DNA from: Methylacidiphilum infernorum V4 | GTDB taxonomy: Bacteria > Verrucomicrobiota > Verrucomicrobiia > Methylacidiphilales > Methylacidiphilaceae | DNA length: 64,000 bases | Direction of reading: 5' to 3' | Assembly (NCBI RefSeq): GCF_000019665.1 | Contig: NC_010794.1 | Span: forward strand, 868,001-932,000 | Shown here: positions 15,909 through 25,941 of the stretch, one piece after another | Layout of the letters: every line of letters starts with the position of its first letter | How positions within the stretch are numbered: position 1 is the stretch's first letter | The notes under the pieces: generated by a model | What the model was told of the DNA's origin: nothing | Seen by the model: only the letters and a program-made list of their open reading frames with translations | The model's database searches: none | Translations under genes and position numbers: made by a program

Positions 15909-17489
15909 ATGGAAAAAATAGAAACGGATTATCTGGTCATTGGAGGTGGTATTGCAGGTCTGTTTTTTGCCCTGGAAGCATCTCGATTTGGCCAGGTAGC
16001 TGTTTTGCTTAAGAATACATTCAATACTTCCAGTTCATGGTATGCCCAGGGTGGCATTTCCTGTGTCGGTTCTTCCGAAGATACATTTGAGTCTCATATC
16101 TCTGACACTCTCAAAGCCGGTGATGGTTTGTGTGATGCCCAGGTAGTGAAGTCTTTTGTTGAGGAAGCACCACAGCGGATTAACGACTTAATCCGTTATG
16201 GAGTACCCTTTAGCAAGGATGAAAAGGGAAATTATGACTTAGGGCTAGAAGCCGGTCATTCTCATCGAAGAATATATCATGTCAAAGACCATACGGGGAT
16301 GGCTATCATCGAGACATTAAAGAAAGAAGTGTTACAAAGAAGTCGGATAACCCTATGGGAAAATCACTTGGCTGTCGATCTTATTATTTCCCAAAATGGA
16401 TGTTTTGGAGCCTACGTTTACGACAAAGAAACGAACCGTTTGAAAGCCTTTCTCTCTGCCCATACTCTTTTATCTACAGGTGGGTGTGGCGCCCTTTATC
16501 TCCATACCACAAACCCTTCCAGTGCGACGGGCGATGGAATTGCGATGGCCTATAGGGCAGGGGCCATTCTTAAAAACATGGAAATGATTCAATTTCATCC
16601 CACCTGTTTTTTTCAATTAACTACTCAAAAGTTTTTAATCAGTGAAGCGGTTCGTGGAGAAGGAGCAAAAATTATTAATCCCGATGGAAAAAGTTTTTTA
16701 CAAGCCTTTGATCCTAGGGCGGAACTTGCCCCCCGGGATATTGTAAGCCGGGCCATTTTCATGGAAATGAAAGCTCATCATTATCCTTATGTCTTCCTCG
16801 ATATAAGGGGACGGCAAAGAAAATGGCTTGAAGAAAGATTTCCCTACATTTTTTCCTTTTGTTTAAGCCAGGGAATAGATATGTCAAAAGATCTTGTGCC
16901 TGTCGCTCCCGCCGCTCATTATCAATGTGGCGGAGTGGCGACCGATGCTTGGGGCAGAACTTCTATTCCAGGGCTATGGGCTGCTGGAGAGGTTGCTTGT
17001 ACAGGTTTTCATGGAGCCAATAGGCTGGCGAGTAATTCCTTATTAGAAGCCGTTATTGTTGCGGGAAGGGCGGCTAGGCTTTCAGCTGAGGAAAAACGGA
17101 GTTATTCTTCCAGGGATCTTTTCAATATAAAAGAAAAGGATTTGGTGTTAGAACGGGATTGCAAAAGAGACGCTGAAATTAAAAAAGCAATAGCTAAAAT
17201 AAGGGAGGTTATGTGGGAGAATGTAGGCATAGTGCGGTGTGTTCCCGGTCTTAAGAAAGCGCAAAAAGAAATTGAATTTCTAATCGACTTTTTAAAGAGC
17301 CAAAAAAAAGAAGAAGCGATGTCGCTGCTCCAACTTGAAGCACAAAATATAGCCTTGACGGCTTCAATAGTTGTTGAAAGTGCTTTACGCAGAAAAGAAA
17401 GCAGGGGGGCCCATTGGGTAAGCGACTACCCGCAGAAGCAGGATGTTCCCAAGGACACCCTTATTTCTTTTGCTTCTTCTTCAGTATGA
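15909..17489 (+). CDS. nadB: L-aspartate oxidase
   Basis: A flavoprotein that oxidises L-aspartate to iminoaspartate, the first step of de novo NAD synthesis. The FAD-binding GGGIAGLFFALEA motif is at the N-terminus. NTFNTSSSWYAQGGISCV, AHYQCGGVATDAWGRTSIPGLWA and GEVACTGFHGANRLASNSLLE match NadB. The length of 526 aa is normal. The start is 37 bases after yidC. No nadA or nadC lies nearby. Confidence 0.95.
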   Translation: MEKIETDYLVIGGGIAGLFFALEASRFGQVAVLLKNTFNTSSSWYAQGGISCVGSSEDTFESHISDTLKAGDGLCDAQVVKSFVEEAPQRINDLIRYGVPFSKDEKGNYDLGLEAGHSHRRIYHVKDHTGMAIIETLKKEVLQRSRITLWENHLAVDLIISQNGCFGAYVYDKETNRLKAFLSAHTLLSTGGCGALYLHTTNPSSATGDGIAMAYRAGAILKNMEMIQFHPTCFFQLTTQKFLISEAVRGEGAKIINPDGKSFLQAFDPRAELAPRDIVSRAIFMEMKAHHYPYVFLDIRGRQRKWLEERFPYIFSFCLSQGIDMSKDLVPVAPAAHYQCGGVATDAWGRTSIPGLWAAGEVACTGFHGANRLASNSLLEAVIVAGRAARLSAEEKRSYSSRDLFNIKEKDLVLERDCKRDAEIKKAIAKIREVMWENVGIVRCVPGLKKAQKEIEFLIDFLKSQKKEEAMSLLQLEAQNIALTASIVVESALRRKESRGAHWVSDYPQKQDVPKDTLISFASSSV

Positions 17490-17595: not shown

Positions 17596-18036
17596 TTGAC
17601 TATTTTAAAGAAGCAATTTAAGATTTTGAATATGGATGGGAAGGTTAAGCGGAAGGTCGTAATCCCTACAAGGAATGCCGAAGCGGCGCGATTGGTCGAA
17701 AAAGTTTTCAAATGCAAGTGGACGGTATCCGTATTGGAATTGATTGGCCAAGGAATCTATAGGCCTGGTCAAATGAAAAAAAACATTCCTGGTATTACTA
17801 CCAAGGTTCTCAGTGATCTTTTAAAAAAGCTCTGCCAGTGGGGCATTATTGAAAGAATTATTTATCCTGTAGTTCCTCCAAAAGTAGAATACCAAATGAC
17901 GTTGTTCGGGAAAAAATTTATGAAAGTTTTAAAAAGCGTGGAGGAACTTCAGCAAGAAATAGATTTTAACCAAGCCCGAGGTGTTGTTGTTGAGGAAGAG
18001 GATTCATTCTGCACTTTTCATAACGGGGCTAAATGA
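17596..18036 (+). CDS. HxlR-family winged-helix transcriptional regulator
   Basis: A 146-residue protein with an HxlR-type DNA-binding domain in its middle: CKWTVSVLELIGQGIYRPGQMKKNIPGITTKVLSDLLKKLCQWGII. Its pattern of KW, then helix, then LxxLxxxGII(x)R is typical of the family. The C-terminus (KSVEELQQEIDFN) is probably a dimerisation helix. The TTG at 17596 has AAGGA about 10 bases upstream; ATG at 17632 is an alternative. It lies downstream of a 23-bp tandem repeat. Ligand and targets cannot be told from sequence. Confidence 0.82.
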   Translation: MTILKKQFKILNMDGKVKRKVVIPTRNAEAARLVEKVFKCKWTVSVLELIGQGIYRPGQMKKNIPGITTKVLSDLLKKLCQWGIIERIIYPVVPPKVEYQMTLFGKKFMKVLKSVEELQQEIDFNQARGVVVEEEDSFCTFHNGAK

Positions 18037-18165
18037 GTTCAATAATTAAATTGATCGAATCTAAAGCCATCTTCCCCTCGCTTTTCCTTTAGGTGGAGCT
18101 CTGGGTTGCTATAGAGGAAAAGATCCTTCTAGGGTTTACAAAACTTTCCCATTTCCTTGTTGGAG
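18037..18165. other. Intergenic stretch after the HxlR gene
   Basis: First part of the 479-base gap between the HxlR gene and nirK. I see no gene, RNA or repeat here. The rest of the gap is the tnpB-derived repeat (18166-18391) and a hairpin cluster (18426-18517). Confidence 0.5.
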
Positions 18166-18391
18166 GGGTTTGAACAGTTGATTCATGATTTGATCTTTTT
18201 CAATCTTTCTTGTACTTTTTAGCTCACATTGGCCGTCTTGAAAGGCCCTGCGGCGAGTTCCGCCGGAAGGCATGCCTGTGGAGAGGAAGGCTCTGGCCTG
18301 ACGCGCACGCGCCGGCCCCGTGCGCCTCAATGAGTAAGTCTGTCAGCTTTGCCCCTGTTTGGGCAGCAGTGAGTAAGCCTGACGGAACGGT
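18166..18391 (+). repeat. IS605-type tnpB C-terminal remnant, copy A of a 226-228 bp repeat
   Basis: This stretch is a homologue of 32200-32427. Both start GGGTTTGAACAGTTGATT and end near GACGGAA. In one plus-strand frame it encodes ACGEEGSGLTRTRRP, and after a frame change SMSKSVSFAPV. Both match the usual C-terminal tail of TnpB proteins from IS200/IS605 elements (ACGEEGSG followed by a KQE-type end). No upstream tnpB is present, and stops and frameshifts break it. Short hairpins (GGCC..GGCC and CTGCGG..CCGC) lie in the 5' half. It is best read as a decayed or internally deleted derivative. Confidence 0.7.
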
Positions 18392-18425
18392 ATTGGGACC
18401 CTGTCCTGGTGAAAAACCTTTTTTT

Positions 18426-18517
18426 AGCCTGCTTGATGAGGGCTTGCTTGATGAATGAGCAGGCATGAGGACTAATCAAGATTAGATCATAGCCAATGCC
18501 TGCTCAAAGCTTTTTTT
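18426..18517 (+). terminator. Hairpin cluster ending in a T-run
   Basis: GAGCAGGCAT (18457-18466) pairs perfectly with ATGCCTGCTC (18496-18505). An inner CTAAT/ATTAG stem lies between the arms, and AAAGCTTTTTTT follows at 18506-18517. A further GCCTGC at 18427 can compete for pairing with GCAGGC, and GCTTGATGA occurs twice in this stretch. It could end plus-strand transcription coming from the HxlR gene or the tnpB remnant. Its T-run overlaps the nirK stop codon. Confidence 0.5.
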
Positions 18518-19445
18518 ACCTGACCAAAATTTGTTCTCCATGACCCATCTTGGGATCCGCATCTTTAGTGAACATGATTATAGCGATAGCTCCGGATAAT
18601 GCTTGTTTCATGGAGTGGGTAACGATCGCATTGGCTCCTTCAACCGGTGAAATCAAATCAAAAATAGCCCCATCCCCGGGCCCCACAGTAAAAGATTGTA
18701 GGCCATACAAAACATTTTTAGGATTGCCTCCTACATAGACCCGATCCCAAATGCCCGCTATGGGATGAAAGGAGGCAAATTCATTGGGACCGGCATTGAC
18801 AAAATAAATGCGCACTCTTTCACCCGGCTTTGCCTGGAGCCATGTCGTCGCCCTCTCATCGTGAACAGGATCGTATTTAAACTTGCAAAAATTGAAAGCA
18901 GCGAATTCCCATTTACCCTCCATCAAGCTTTTTTCGTCATCGGGGTTGGAATAGATTTCTGATTGCACAAGGACGTATTCTCTATCCGCTTTAGGCATCG
19001 CCTTGGAGTCCTTTGGATCTACAATGATCACTCCAAACATTCCCCTTGCTATGTGTTGGACCATCGGATCGGCTCCACAATGATAAAAGAAGACCCCCGG
19101 GTAATTGGCTTTAAAGGTGTAATGCTTGGTCTCCCCGGGTCTTATTTGGCCAAAGTCCTTGGCTGCGTCGAGCTGGGCTGCATGAAAGTCCATGGCATGA
19201 GACTTTTTATTGGTTATTTCATTGACAAGGGTAAAATCGACAACATCTCCTTCTGTCACCCTTACCAGGGGACCTGGAACTTGGCCGTTAAATGTCCATG
19301 CCAGGTATTTTGTCCCCTTGTTGTCGATGACTAACTCGGCTTCTTTGCCATGAAACTCGATTGTAACGGTTTTAGCTGTTCCAACCGAGCTGATACCTAT
19401 CCAGAGCATGGGTATGACCATCAACACTCTCATTTTTATTTTCAT
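18516..19445 (-). CDS. nirK: Copper-containing nitrite reductase
   Basis: Reduces nitrite to nitric oxide in the periplasm. The 309-residue protein has a signal peptide (to about residue 24) and two cupredoxin domains. Type 1 copper ligands are visible: His83, Cys123, His131, Met136. Type 2 ligands are His88, His122 and, in domain 2, His227 (FHPIAG). The catalytic Asp86 (AMDFH) and His195 (DPVHDE) are both kept, so it should be active. The ATG follows AGGAGAGG. It is the last gene of an ncgA-ncgB-ncgC-nirK unit like that of Nitrosomonas europaea, where it helps nitrite tolerance. In a methanotroph it would handle nitrite formed by methane monooxygenase acting on ammonia (inference). Confidence 0.95.
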   Translation of the reverse strand: MKIKMRVLMVIPMLWIGISSVGTAKTVTIEFHGKEAELVIDNKGTKYLAWTFNGQVPGPLVRVTEGDVVDFTLVNEITNKKSHAMDFHAAQLDAAKDFGQIRPGETKHYTFKANYPGVFFYHCGADPMVQHIARGMFGVIIVDPKDSKAMPKADREYVLVQSEIYSNPDDEKSLMEGKWEFAAFNFCKFKYDPVHDERATTWLQAKPGERVRIYFVNAGPNEFASFHPIAGIWDRVYVGGNPKNVLYGLQSFTVGPGDGAIFDLISPVEGANAIVTHSMKQALSGAIAIIMFTKDADPKMGHGEQILVR

Positions 19446-19462
19446 GATTTTCCTCTCCTTTT

Positions 19463-19894
19463 TTATGATTTGTTCTTAGCTTCCATCCCACAATTGCAGA
19501 TGTGGCGAAGATAGTCTTTTAATTCCAAAATTTCCTCTTGAGTGAGCACTTTTCCCCATGCGGGCATCAGTATCGATTTTTGGACGGAAATGCCTCCATT
19601 GGTAATGGCTTTTATTATTTCATCGTCTGGAATTTTTCCCATTTCTTTAGGATCGGTATGATCTCGGGGTTGAACGGTCATGAATTTGGCATTAATGCCG
19701 GTGCCGTTTCTTTGCAATCCATGGCATTGCACGCAATAGGTATTGTAGATCTTCTCAATTTTTGCCCATTTTTGTTCTTCTGCCTGTGCCCAAAGAGGGA
19801 GGAATAGGGCTAAAAGGCATGCAAAGAGGATTGGACCGCTATAAAGCGGTCGTATCCAAGCCAAGCAAGAAAAACTGCAGGATTTCTTTGTCAT
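19463..19894 (-). CDS. ncgC: Monohaem c-type cytochrome (NcgC-like)
   Basis: A periplasmic class I cytochrome c of 143 aa. The signal peptide ends at AQAEE (about residue 39), and the haem motif CVQCH is at residues 54-58. The axial Met is probably in ILMPAWG (Met110). The open frame extends upstream to 19990, but ATG at 19894 has AGGAGGG just before it and overlaps the stop of the upstream cytochrome gene (ATGA), so I use it. Its place between a dihaem cytochrome and nirK matches ncgC of Nitrosomonas, suggesting a role in passing electrons to NirK. Confidence 0.85.
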   Translation of the reverse strand: MTKKSCSFSCLAWIRPLYSGPILFACLLALFLPLWAQAEEQKWAKIEKIYNTYCVQCHGLQRNGTGINAKFMTVQPRDHTDPKEMGKIPDDEIIKAITNGGISVQKSILMPAWGKVLTQEEILELKDYLRHICNCGMEAKNKS

Positions 19895-20586
19895 TTTCCC
19901 TCCTTTTTTTGTGAAGATTCCCGCAGGCTCATTAGATAAGAAGTAAGCCGCTGAAGATCCGCTTCTGCTAAATCCAGCTTGGGCATCCATATGTGGGGTT
20001 CGAATTTTTGGGGATCTTGTATGAAGGAATAAACAAAGTCTGCTTGCAGTCTGTCCCCTGCATTATACAATTGGGGTCCTGACAGCCCTCCTCCTCCTTC
20101 TTTTGTAGCGTGGCAGGACGAACAGCCCCGTAATTTTCCAAAGAACATGGCTCCTATAGTTGGATTAATGGGTTCATTTTTAAACTGACCTGCAGTCACT
20201 AGTCCCTCGGGTTTAAGGCTCATTAAAGTGTTCGCTACAGCTTCCGCTTCTTTTGCGGAGAGCTTTGGATGGGGACTAAGTGTAGCAGGATCGATTTCAT
20301 CGCCTTTAGGAGTGGCTTTAATATGTTTGAAATAAAATTCCCCAGCAGGACGGATAACGGTTGGTTGCTCAAGCCACTTGATGAGCCAATCTTTTTGGAA
20401 TTTGAGCCCCGCATAATAGAGATCAGGTCCTTTTCTATTCCATAGCCTTTCTAAAGAGCTGTCGGCAGGTCGAGTTAATGCATGGCAGCTTGCGCATTGC
20501 CTTTGGAGAATTTCCATGCCCTCGTCTGCAAAAAGCTTGTCAAGGCAAAGCAAAAGCGACAAGATAAATAAGTAAAAGAGTTTCAT
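19891..20586 (-). CDS. ncgB: Dihaem c-type cytochrome (NcgB-like)
   Basis: A periplasmic protein of 231 aa from ATG 20586, with a signal peptide (FYLFILSLLLCLDKLFADEG). It has two class I cytochrome c domains with haem motifs CASCH (residues 31-35) and CSSCH (155-159). Possible Met ligands lie in each half, the second in IWMPKLDL. A GTG at 20610 is an alternative start that would overlap ncgA, but the ATG lies just after the ncgA stop and directly before the signal peptide. The dihaem type and the position after a multicopper oxidase match ncgB. Confidence 0.85.
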   Translation of the reverse strand: MKLFYLFILSLLLCLDKLFADEGMEILQRQCASCHALTRPADSSLERLWNRKGPDLYYAGLKFQKDWLIKWLEQPTVIRPAGEFYFKHIKATPKGDEIDPATLSPHPKLSAKEAEAVANTLMSLKPEGLVTAGQFKNEPINPTIGAMFFGKLRGCSSCHATKEGGGGLSGPQLYNAGDRLQADFVYSFIQDPQKFEPHIWMPKLDLAEADLQRLTSYLMSLRESSQKKEGK

Positions 20587-20590
20587 CTTC

Positions 20591-21652
20591 TTATTGGGGA
20601 GCAGGTTCACCTTTGAACAGGGGATTTATAAAGAGGCCGTAAGGCTTTTTGATCGATTCTTCATAAAAAAAATCGGGGGCATATTTTTTATCTTTCCAGT
20701 CATACCAGGAATCGTTTTTTTCAACTTCCTCATACTCTATAACCGTCATTATTCCTCCCATGGGATTTCCCCCATTGGTCGTATGAACGTCCACGTGATC
20801 ATGAACCATCCATCGACCGGGATTGTCGGCAAGCATAAAGAGATCGTATCTTTCTCCAGGAGAAATCAGTAGAGTATCCGCTTCTATGGGATTGGGTAAG
20901 AAATGACCATCTTTGCATCCAATCAAGAACACATGCCCATGAATGTGAAGGGAATGAACCGTGTCGCTTGTGGCAAAAATCCTCAAGCGTATGAAATCCC
21001 CTTTTTTGACGCGAATGGGTTGGGTTTCCGGATAACTTCTACCGTTAATTGTAAAATAATCTTCTATGTCTCCAGGAATCCCTCCGTATCCGGGTTTTCT
21101 TGCCCACTGTGAGGGCCAACTGCTGAGCATGAGGATGTAATCTTTAGTTACCTTTTTTTCTAAGGGATGGGCTTTAGGAGGATCAACGATTAAAGGTCCC
21201 CACATGCCCCTCATCGATACATGCTCGTTGACATTGACATGACAGTGATACCAGTATGTTCCCGCAGGGACGGCTTTAAAATGATAGGTAAAAGTATCAC
21301 CGGGCTTTATCTCAGGCTGGGTCGTATTGGGTACCCCGTCCATTTGCCAGGTTCCTGTTTGAAGAATCCCATGCCAATGGATAGTATGGGGAAGGGTTGT
21401 GAGATTGGTGACTTTAACCGTTACATCATCGCCATATTTAACATGAATAAGAGGACCGGGGACCTGGCCGTTAAAAGCAAAAGTATGGAATTTTTGATCT
21501 TTAACGAGCGTGATGATTGTATCTTCTATGGTCAGTTCAAAATTTCGGGATTCGCAAAGGAGAGAATTTCTGAATAAAAAAAGGAACCAAAGAGTAAGGA
21601 GAAAAGCCGAAGAAGTTTTAAAAAACCGATTTAACCTTAGCTTCAAATTCAT
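20591..21652 (-). CDS. ncgA: Two-domain multicopper oxidase (NcgA-like)
   Basis: A periplasmic copper oxidase of 353 aa with a signal peptide. Domain 1 has HWHG (His92, His94) and WYHCHVNVNEHVSMRGM, carrying His136, Cys137, His138, His144 and a Met, so it holds type 1 copper and part of the cluster. Domain 2 has HSLHIHGH (residues 233-240) and HDHVDVH (284-290); Asp285 stands where a second type 1 Cys would be, so domain 2 has no type 1 copper. That pattern fits a type B two-domain oxidase, which trimerises. It starts the ncgABC-nirK unit. ATG 21652 is preferred over the TTG one codon earlier. Confidence 0.87.
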   Translation of the reverse strand: MNLKLRLNRFFKTSSAFLLTLWFLFLFRNSLLCESRNFELTIEDTIITLVKDQKFHTFAFNGQVPGPLIHVKYGDDVTVKVTNLTTLPHTIHWHGILQTGTWQMDGVPNTTQPEIKPGDTFTYHFKAVPAGTYWYHCHVNVNEHVSMRGMWGPLIVDPPKAHPLEKKVTKDYILMLSSWPSQWARKPGYGGIPGDIEDYFTINGRSYPETQPIRVKKGDFIRLRIFATSDTVHSLHIHGHVFLIGCKDGHFLPNPIEADTLLISPGERYDLFMLADNPGRWMVHDHVDVHTTNGGNPMGGIMTVIEYEEVEKNDSWYDWKDKKYAPDFFYEESIKKPYGLFINPLFKGEPAPQ

Positions 21653-21731
21653 CAAGAGATAAAAGCCTTATCCCGCCAAAAATAACAAGTAGGCACAATT
21701 GAGAATAAAAGTTACTTTTTGGTTTTATTTG

Positions 21732-21742
21732 TTGATAATCAA
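21732..21742. promoter_or_regulatory. Palindrome TTGATAATCAA upstream of ncgA
   Basis: A perfect 5+1+5 inverted repeat about 80 bases upstream of the ncgA start, in the 290-base AT-rich gap between ncgA and the GT39 gene. Its arms equal the FNR/NnrR half-sites TTGAT and ATCAA, but the spacer is one base instead of four, so it is not a standard FNR box. It might be an operator for the nitrite-responsive unit. No regulator is known from the window. Confidence 0.25.
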
Positions 21743-21945
21743 AGAAATATTTTTTTATTCGAAGAAAAGCTCAAGGCTTCTAACCGAAAGCTAGGGAATA
21801 AAAAAAAATCTATCCGGGTTGGATCACGAAGCCGTTTATCCTGGGGAGTATTGAAAGAGAGATCCATGATCGTGGTCCTTGAAAGGGAATGGGAAAATAA
21901 TTTTTTAGAGAAATAGCGTTACCGGTTTTAGCCTGAAAGCCAGGC

Positions 21946-23718
21946 TTAGTAGTGGTAGGAGAAATCAATTTTTACCCAGGACATTCTCCCCAGGTTAAGT
22001 CCTTCTATGCGTCCTTCTCCTTGGCTTGCTTGAACTGGAAGAGGAGTCCCCAAGGCCGAATCATTTTTATAAGTTGACCGGGGATGGTTTTTCTCATCAA
22101 GAGGCCAGGGCAAGGTTTTGAAAAGAGAAGTTTCTGTTTCTAACCGGAGAGAAAAATAGGGAGGGAGAACCGGGGCTAGGGGGGGATCCCATGTCCATAA
22201 CCTGTTCGAATAAAAGACAAGGCTCGGTTCTGTATAGCCCCAAGCACAGTTTTGGGAAGCAAGGGGCATATTTTTGAAAAGAGGGGCTATTTTGACGGTC
22301 AAGGAAAGACAGCGGAGATCTTTGGCTAGGAAATTCAATACATAGATTAAAGCGATGTAGTTCGTAGCCATCATGAGAAAGGGAGCAGTTCTTGAAGAGA
22401 GGTTATGGCCGTAGAGCATCATAGCCCCTCCAAAAAGGCATAAAAGAAGGATAACGAGACCTATGGAAAGAAGAACGTTCTTGAGGGGATGGTTTAGGAT
22501 GATCCCGTAAAAGGGGTAAAGGGAAACAAGGAACAGGGAAAAGAGAAAAAATACGACAAGAAGCAAAAGGGCAAAGAGAAGGGAAAATTTCGTTTTTTTT
22601 GCCTCGTTTATTCCTTGGCCGGTCACAAGGAAATAAGCAGGAAAGCCGGGCATGATATAATGGGGTAATTCTGTAGCATAGAAAGAGAAAATGATTATGG
22701 GAGCAAGAAACCAGGAAAGGAAAAAGGCGTTCTCCATAGACCATTTTTTCCTCAAGGTTTCAATGAAAAGGCCGAAGAATGCTGAAGAAGGGAAAAGACT
22801 TAAAAAAGGAGAGATGAAATAATAGAAAGGAATAAACGGCCTGTTGTCGAAGGCTTCCATTCCCCTTCGGATGACGTGTTCACCAATCCCTATTTTCCAA
22901 AAAAGCCCTTTTGTTTCGATCAATGCGGGTAGCGCCCACAAGCTTATGATAGATAGGCATAATAAAAGCCCGGGAATAAGATGGAGAGAAGGAATAGCCT
23001 TTTGTTTTCTCCAAAAAACAAATCGGAAAAGAATAAACGTAAAAAGGGGAATGAGCCAACTTATAGGTCCTTTAGCAAGAAAACCCAGGGCCAAGGAAAT
23101 CCAGAAAATCGAGAACCAGAACCACGATTTTTGATTAAGGAGGTTCAAAAAAGCCCATTGGGCAGTTGTAACGAAAAGAGTCATAGCCATATCGGCTGTT
23201 GCCAATCTTCCATGGAGAAGGGTTTGAAGCGAAAAGCAGAAGCTTATGGGGACAATTAAACGCACGGAAGGAGAATAACGATAGGCAATGCAGTAAAGAA
23301 TAACGGCAAGGATTGAGCAAGAGAGGATAGAAGGAAGCCTTGCAGAGAATTCATTTATTCCCAATAATTTATAACTTAAAACCATGAGCCAATATATAAG
23401 AGGGGGTTTGTCCAGCCTAAATTCACCGTTGAAAAAGGGTACAACAAAGTTTTTCCGTTCCATCATTTCCCTTGCAGCCTGTGCAAACCGGGGTTCGTCA
23501 CGATCTATGAGGGGAAGAGAAAAAGAACCTGCTGAGAGGAGAACAAAGGAGAAGAGAAAAACGAAAAGAAGAGGGAAAAAAGGGCTGAACTTCGTGTTGG
23601 TTAGACGGAGAAGGTTCTTGGTCTTGTCAAAATTTTGTGGTTTTTGAGGAAATTTTTTTTTAAAGGGACTGTTGATTGAATCCATCAGAGAAAGAGTTAT
23701 GTTTAAAGAAACAAGCAT
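21946..23718 (-). CDS. GT39-family (ArnT/PMT-like) membrane glycosyltransferase
   Basis: A 590-residue integral membrane protein with about 11-12 hydrophobic segments. The first extracytoplasmic loop, LPLIDRDEPRFAQAAREMMERKNFVVP, has the DRDEPRFA motif found in ArnT-type polyprenyl-phosphate sugar transferases. DKPPLIYWL and SARLPSILS continue the match. Members move sugars from an isoprenoid phosphate to lipid A, proteins or other acceptors; the acceptor here is unknown. Start is ATG 23718 or ATG 23685; the 30 residues between them are unlike the family. Confidence 0.87.
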   Translation of the reverse strand: MLVSLNITLSLMDSINSPFKKKFPQKPQNFDKTKNLLRLTNTKFSPFFPLLFVFLFSFVLLSAGSFSLPLIDRDEPRFAQAAREMMERKNFVVPFFNGEFRLDKPPLIYWLMVLSYKLLGINEFSARLPSILSCSILAVILYCIAYRYSPSVRLIVPISFCFSLQTLLHGRLATADMAMTLFVTTAQWAFLNLLNQKSWFWFSIFWISLALGFLAKGPISWLIPLFTFILFRFVFWRKQKAIPSLHLIPGLLLCLSIISLWALPALIETKGLFWKIGIGEHVIRRGMEAFDNRPFIPFYYFISPFLSLFPSSAFFGLFIETLRKKWSMENAFFLSWFLAPIIIFSFYATELPHYIMPGFPAYFLVTGQGINEAKKTKFSLLFALLLLVVFFLFSLFLVSLYPFYGIILNHPLKNVLLSIGLVILLLCLFGGAMMLYGHNLSSRTAPFLMMATNYIALIYVLNFLAKDLRCLSLTVKIAPLFKNMPLASQNCAWGYTEPSLVFYSNRLWTWDPPLAPVLPPYFSLRLETETSLFKTLPWPLDEKNHPRSTYKNDSALGTPLPVQASQGEGRIEGLNLGRMSWVKIDFSYHY

Positions 23719-24017: not shown

Positions 24018-25868
<1,851 letters not shown>

Positions 25869-25941
25869 GGGGGCATAGCTCAGTTGGTAGAGCGGCAGCT
25901 TTGCAAGCTGTAGGTCAGGGGTTCGAATCCCCTTGCCTCCA
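25869..25941 (+). tRNA. tRNA-Ala (TGC)
   Basis: A 73-base cloverleaf. The acceptor GGGGGCA pairs with TGCCTCC with one G-T pair, the D arm GCTC/GAGC is present, and the anticodon loop has TGC. The T arm holds GGTTCGAATCC. CCA is not encoded. It is the first tRNA of the rRNA spacer, where tRNA-Ile usually comes first. Confidence 0.97.

Follow-up and report, generated by a model that had tools for sequence, protein, structure and literature searches.

In Nitrosomonas europaea, both the copper nitrite reductase gene nirK and the ncgABC genes make the cells tolerant of nitrite, and nirK does harm when ncgABC is missing (PMC5080386, citing Beaumont 2004, 2005). What precisely the NcgABC proteins do has yet to be settled (PMC6967387). 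Within the genus Methylacidiphilum, M. fumariolicum SolV forms nitrite by ammonia oxidation and is also able to reduce it (PMC5623727). For M. infernorum V4, an acid- and heat-loving methanotroph, haoAB and norBC have been reported; the SolV nirK and its V4 homologue have also been described, and a probable horizontal origin of V4 nirK was published in 2019 (PMC6688271). Here, we analysed a 64,000-nucleotide stretch of V4 DNA (“the window”; positions 868,001-932,000 of the 2,287,145-bp chromosome), whose minus strand holds ncgA-ncgB-ncgC-nirK, closely packed and in the N. europaea order. We read this locus, with a probability of roughly 0.7, as an N. europaea-type ncgABC-nirK block that was acquired ancestrally from a source other than Nitrosomonas, was lost in Kam1 and serves in tolerance of nitrite and nitric oxide (NO).

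A search of the open-access literature on ncg genes, with most subscription papers outside its scope, returned no Methylacidiphilum paper. The cluster as a whole, its remnant in Kam1 and the exchange of nsrR for an HxlR-type gene thus appear to be unreported in that literature. The locus extends the complete ncgABC-nirK module to the Verrucomicrobiota and to an extreme acidophile, a setting in which nitrite is especially toxic.

Identity and active sites of the cluster

The four genes are as follows (window coordinates):

18516..19445, minus strand: nirK, N. europaea-type copper nitrite reductase of 309 aa with a signal peptide-like N-terminus
19463..19894, minus strand: ncgC, monohaem cytochrome c (PF13442/PF00034) with CVQCH and a conserved Met110
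19891..20610, minus strand: ncgB, dihaem cytochrome c (PF00034) with CASCH and CSSCH
20591..21652, minus strand: ncgA, two-domain multicopper oxidase (PF07732+PF07731)

A first-pass annotation, made from the sequence alone, had recognised ncgABC-nirK in the N. europaea order, and the four open reading frames lie where it placed them. Its description of the genes as overlapping or nearly touching is also correct: ncgA and ncgB overlap by at most 20 nt, the extent being set by the choice of ncgB start (GTG or, alternatively, ATG at 20586), ncgB and ncgC overlap in an ATGA, and a gap of 17 nt with a AGGAGAGG-type ribosome site separates ncgC from nirK. The ncgA start is the ATG at 21652, preceded by a TTG at 21655. 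The span of 18516-21742 assigned to the cluster contains the coding genes, although its end at 21742 covers the promoter region and not coding sequence.

Among solved structures, NirK is best matched by PDB 4kns (E 3e-140, aligned residues 25-309), with the next structure far behind, and NcgA by PDB 3g5w (E 1e-153). We take 4kns to be N. europaea NirK and 3g5w to be the N. europaea two-domain multicopper oxidase; a genome (G804) from the order to which Thiobacillus belongs has a gene 100% identical to 4kns. Residue roles in both proteins were assigned from family knowledge and, for NirK, also by alignment with 4kns. The annotation had claimed a complete set of NirK copper ligands together with both catalytic residues, and this is correct: H83, C123, H131 and M136 for type 1 (T1) copper, H88, H122 and H277 for type 2 (T2) copper, and the catalytic D86 and H227, each invariant in 100 relatives. 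NcgA carries a T1 copper set in domain 1 only (Cys137/His144/Met150), with Asp285 at the domain-2 Cys position, and this pattern is invariant among the relatives that cover the sites. All three haem sites of NcgB and NcgC are intact; CVQCH of NcgC is kept in 98/98 relatives, and CASCH and CSSCH of NcgB in 93/96 and 96/96, respectively. The conserved Met110 of NcgC is likely the axial haem ligand.

Against NCBIfam TIGR02376, NirK scores 192.4 bits, below the curated cut-off of 296.3 bits. This score is an annotation rule and not a defining feature, as the crystallised 4kns is a full-length best match. V4 does possess NirK, whereas a 2012 paper had stated that SolV is the one strain in this set with nirK (PMC3404531), and the sub-cut-off score may explain both the missed nirK annotation and that statement.

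The ncgA-B-C-nirK order occurs in 58 of the 80 loci found by a NirK search, in several phyla; a further 11 have the order nirK-B-C-A, and the remaining 11 are partial, cut by a contig end or otherwise arranged. Recorded hosts of related loci include Thiobacillus, Nitrobacter, Cupriavidus, Sphingopyxis, Nitrospirota, Acidobacteriaceae and Zetaproteobacteria. The recurrence of this order, together with the E-values of the structure matches, excludes chance; it also marks a broad family and not a Nitrosomonas trait. In the Nitrosomonas family itself, 9/125 genomes carry this NirK type, the others having no match or distant ones (Nitrosomonas genomes were recognised by NirK 82-100% identical to 4kns, and six of the nine have an AmoA gene). 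Among 387 Verrucomicrobiota genomes the type is confined to Methylacidiphilum, the next best match being ~40% identical, and plasmid records gave no close relative (all <60% identity). In one zetaproteobacterial locus (L083), a tandem nirK pair follows ncgB-ncgC, and another ncgA-B-C set occupies the opposite strand.

Insertion site and loss in Kam1

The site of the cluster is defined by two conserved flanking genes, with a regulator gene lying between nirK and the left flank:

15909..17489, plus strand: nadB, left neighbour and conserved insertion-site flank
17596..18036, plus strand: HxlR-family regulator gene (PF01638, E 8e-21), convergent with nirK
21946..23718, minus strand: ArnT/PMT-like glycosyltransferase gene (PF13231), right neighbour and conserved insertion-site flank

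The cluster is present in four of the five sampled Methylacidiphilum species (V4, G072, SolV [G042] and Yel), where it lies with the HxlR gene between nadB and the glycosyltransferase gene. nadB is found at the site in these four, in Kam1 and in a same-family genome (G265), and the glycosyltransferase gene in all five Methylacidiphilum species. In G265, nadB adjoins the glycosyltransferase gene and the cluster is absent.

At the Kam1 (G152) site, only the 5' part of ncgA is found; its frame is broken by a one-base deletion and it ends abruptly. Over 632 bp that take in upstream DNA as well, the remnant shares 92% DNA identity with the Yel locus. Because this frameshifted, truncated ncgA persists at the site, Kam1 is a case of loss by deletion and frameshift, and the possibility that it is primitively without the cluster is rejected. 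A 2019 paper had noted that Kam1 has no nitrite reductase and that the flanks are conserved (PMC6688271). The simplest inference places the acquisition before the five species diverged. The broken remnant in Kam1 makes possible, within one genus, a natural comparison of strains with and without the cluster, from which the function of the poorly understood NcgABC proteins could be learned.

Between V4 and G072, NirK is 95% identical and the flanking proteins 70-88%, a difference that suggests purifying selection on NirK. A recent transfer visible in composition was considered and rejected: the GC content of the cluster (42-46%) matches that of the window (44%) and is ameliorated.

Two further features lie near the cluster. 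Between hxlR and nirK (window 18164-18392) is a GC-rich dispersed repeat of ~227 bp without a strong fold; it has ~25 further copies or part-copies across the V4 chromosome (68-91% identity). Three related genomes contain partial matches that are weaker, and Kam1 has none. A 16S rRNA gene and a tRNA are found at window 24018-25541 and 25869-25941.

Role, origin and regulation

By analogy with N. europaea, the role of the cluster is likely periplasmic detoxification of nitrite and NO. From the homologues we infer the following route. In the periplasm, the T1 copper of NirK would receive one electron from NcgC and/or NcgB, or from another c-type cytochrome, and the T2 copper would reduce nitrite to NO, which NorBC would remove as N2O. 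NcgABC would prevent harm from NirK activity, whether by supplying the enzyme with electrons or by clearing NO or excess electrons, and NcgA may hand electrons to O2. The net effect would be tolerance of the nitrite and NO that arise from ammonia processing by methane monooxygenase and HaoAB. A need for nitrite handling had been proposed in the first-pass annotation; published SolV physiology (PMC5623727) agrees with it, although this evidence comes from a sister species and not from V4.

There are two other possibilities for the role. NO released by HaoAB could be oxidised to nitrite by backward-running NirK and/or NcgA, which would explain nitrite formation by these methanotrophs. NirK was raised as a candidate for this in the 2019 paper (PMC6688271), NO consumption in Nitrobacter accompanies nirK/ncgABC expression (PMC5080386), and the NcgA ligand set is that of an oxygen-type multicopper oxidase. 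However, Kam1 retains haoAB and norBC according to the literature and has lost the cluster, so the cluster is not required with HaoAB, and the best-studied N. europaea phenotype is tolerance to added nitrite. We regard this reverse role as unlikely. Slightly less probable again is respiratory denitrification, in which nitrite would serve as acceptor at low oxygen, with NcgB/NcgC donating to NirK and NorBC acting downstream. SolV nirK transcripts are indeed elevated under O2 limitation (PMC3404531), but this might concern the other nirK of SolV, Mfumv2_1973, which later work names as SolV nirK (PMC5623727); moreover, the authors of the SolV study take it to be a way of coping with nitrosative stress, NcgA suggests a setting exposed to O2, and growth on nitrite is not reported for V4 in the literature examined. 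The second NirK-like gene lies at C1:1919793-1920635 in SolV (G042) and at C1:1940956-1941780 in G072 (32-33% identity), and the G072 copy carries an in-frame TAG.

As to origin, trees were built as quick searches on a homologue sample drawn with exact peptide patterns. In all four best gene trees, the V4 genes stand beside those of two soil proteobacterial metagenome-assembled genomes (MAGs) from Centralia (L005 and L006). Support for Methylacidiphilum + Centralia is 86 for NirK, 100 for NcgA, 97-98 for NcgC and 99 for the concatenation, and weak (10-57) in the best NcgB tree; in the NirK tree, the Acidobacteriaceae KBS 96 joins next (95). Separate phylogenies for the four genes were thus not seen, and the nearest relatives do not fall outside nitrite-handling clusters, as the Centralia loci carry the same four genes. 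In approximately unbiased (AU) tests, a forced Methylacidiphilum + Nitrosomonas grouping is worse by 63.5 log units in the concatenated data (p 0.00026) and is rejected for NcgA (p 0.002) and NcgB (p 0.023). The sequences indicate a single history for all four genes and a probable horizontal acquisition of the cluster, from a source nearer the Centralia proteobacterial lineage than Nitrosomonas. Of the gene transfer envisaged in the first-pass annotation, horizontal acquisition and a single history stand, but a special tie to Nitrosomonas does not, given the widespread gene order and the AU rejection. A direct origin from a Nitrosomonas-like ammonia oxidiser, which the shared order, the 47-67% protein identity to N. 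europaea and a published blastn best match of SolV nirK to N. eutropha (PMC6688271) might favour, is very improbable and is rejected on this sample by AU tests for the concatenation, NcgA, NcgB and, marginally, NirK, and both the Centralia bins (56-78% identity) and Thiobacillus are closer to V4 for all four proteins. The genome of L005 (L115; Centralia_MAG_89) also encodes a PmoA/AmoA-family protein, about equally near methane and ammonia monooxygenase structures, with a PmoC-like ORF alongside.

Several points weigh against an ancestral acquisition of a nitrite-tolerance block from a non-Nitrosomonas source: (i) grouping with Nitrosomonas is only weakly rejected for NirK alone (p 0.042) and is not rejected for the short NcgC (p 0.158); (ii) a nearer relative may be missing from a pattern-limited sample with quick trees; (iii) the two Centralia bins are alone among 41 genomes of their order in having this NirK, so the Centralia lineage may have been donor or recipient, or another lineage the donor; (iv) N. 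europaea nirK mutants still produce NO and N2O (PMC6967387), so NirK cannot be the only nitrite reductase of that species; and (v) the nsrR link is missing at the V4 locus, so regulation may differ.

With regard to this last point, an Rrf2/NsrR-type gene lies at or near the cluster in the Centralia, Nitrosomonas, Thiobacillus, many alphaproteobacterial and KBS 96 loci. No Rrf2/nsrR gene is found at the Methylacidiphilum cluster locus, which makes nsrR a common, not universal, companion; the only Rrf2 gene of V4 is ~1.07 Mb from the cluster and shares 33% identity with its Centralia counterpart. In each of the four genomes with the cluster, the HxlR-type gene and nirK are convergent; Kam1 and two same-family genomes contain no match to the HxlR-type gene. 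We hypothesise that it is a local regulator replacing NsrR. Two noncoding features border the cluster:

21675..21760, minus strand: upstream block, AAAAAATATTTCTTTG..ATCAA..A.TA..AC.AAAAAGTAACT.T....CT.AATTGTGCCTA.TTGTT
18456..18506, minus strand: perfect 11-bp inverted repeat directly after nirK, found by a repeat search

The upstream block hardly varies among five Methylacidiphilum sequences, one of them the Kam1 remnant, where it is kept upstream of the ncgA stub; DNA further upstream is poorly conserved. This conservation points to a probable promoter/operator. AAAAAGTAACTTT, tested as a repeated operator, has one match only in the window and gains no support. The inverted repeat is a possible transcript end, although a terminator scan did not call it; sigma-70 promoter and terminator scans of the cluster region gave no more than chance, and Rfam found no RNA inside the cluster. 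A tentative model, which we hold to be possible but doubtful, is that Methylacidiphilum re-wired a borrowed operon by dropping NsrR, with the HxlR-type regulator, co-inherited and co-lost with the cluster, acting on the upstream block.

Comparison with known systems

The N. europaea cluster (NE0924 and upstream genes) has the same four genes, order and active-site residues as that of V4, with identities of 66% for NirK, 67% for NcgA, 53% for NcgB and 47% for NcgC. It differs in having nsrR beside it, where the V4 locus has none and an HxlR gene instead, and the trees do not place V4 as the sister of Nitrosomonas. The Centralia MAGs, both of one order, are the nearest sampled relatives outside the genus and share the gene order; their host is recorded as a proteobacterium and, unlike V4, they have an Rrf2/NsrR-type gene directly upstream. 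Closest of all is the region of SolV nirK (Mfumv2_1120), which holds the same cluster at the same site with 77-93% identity to V4. SolV has in addition a second, distant NirK-like protein (33% identity) that V4 lacks, so the NirK of the cluster is the only one V4 has.

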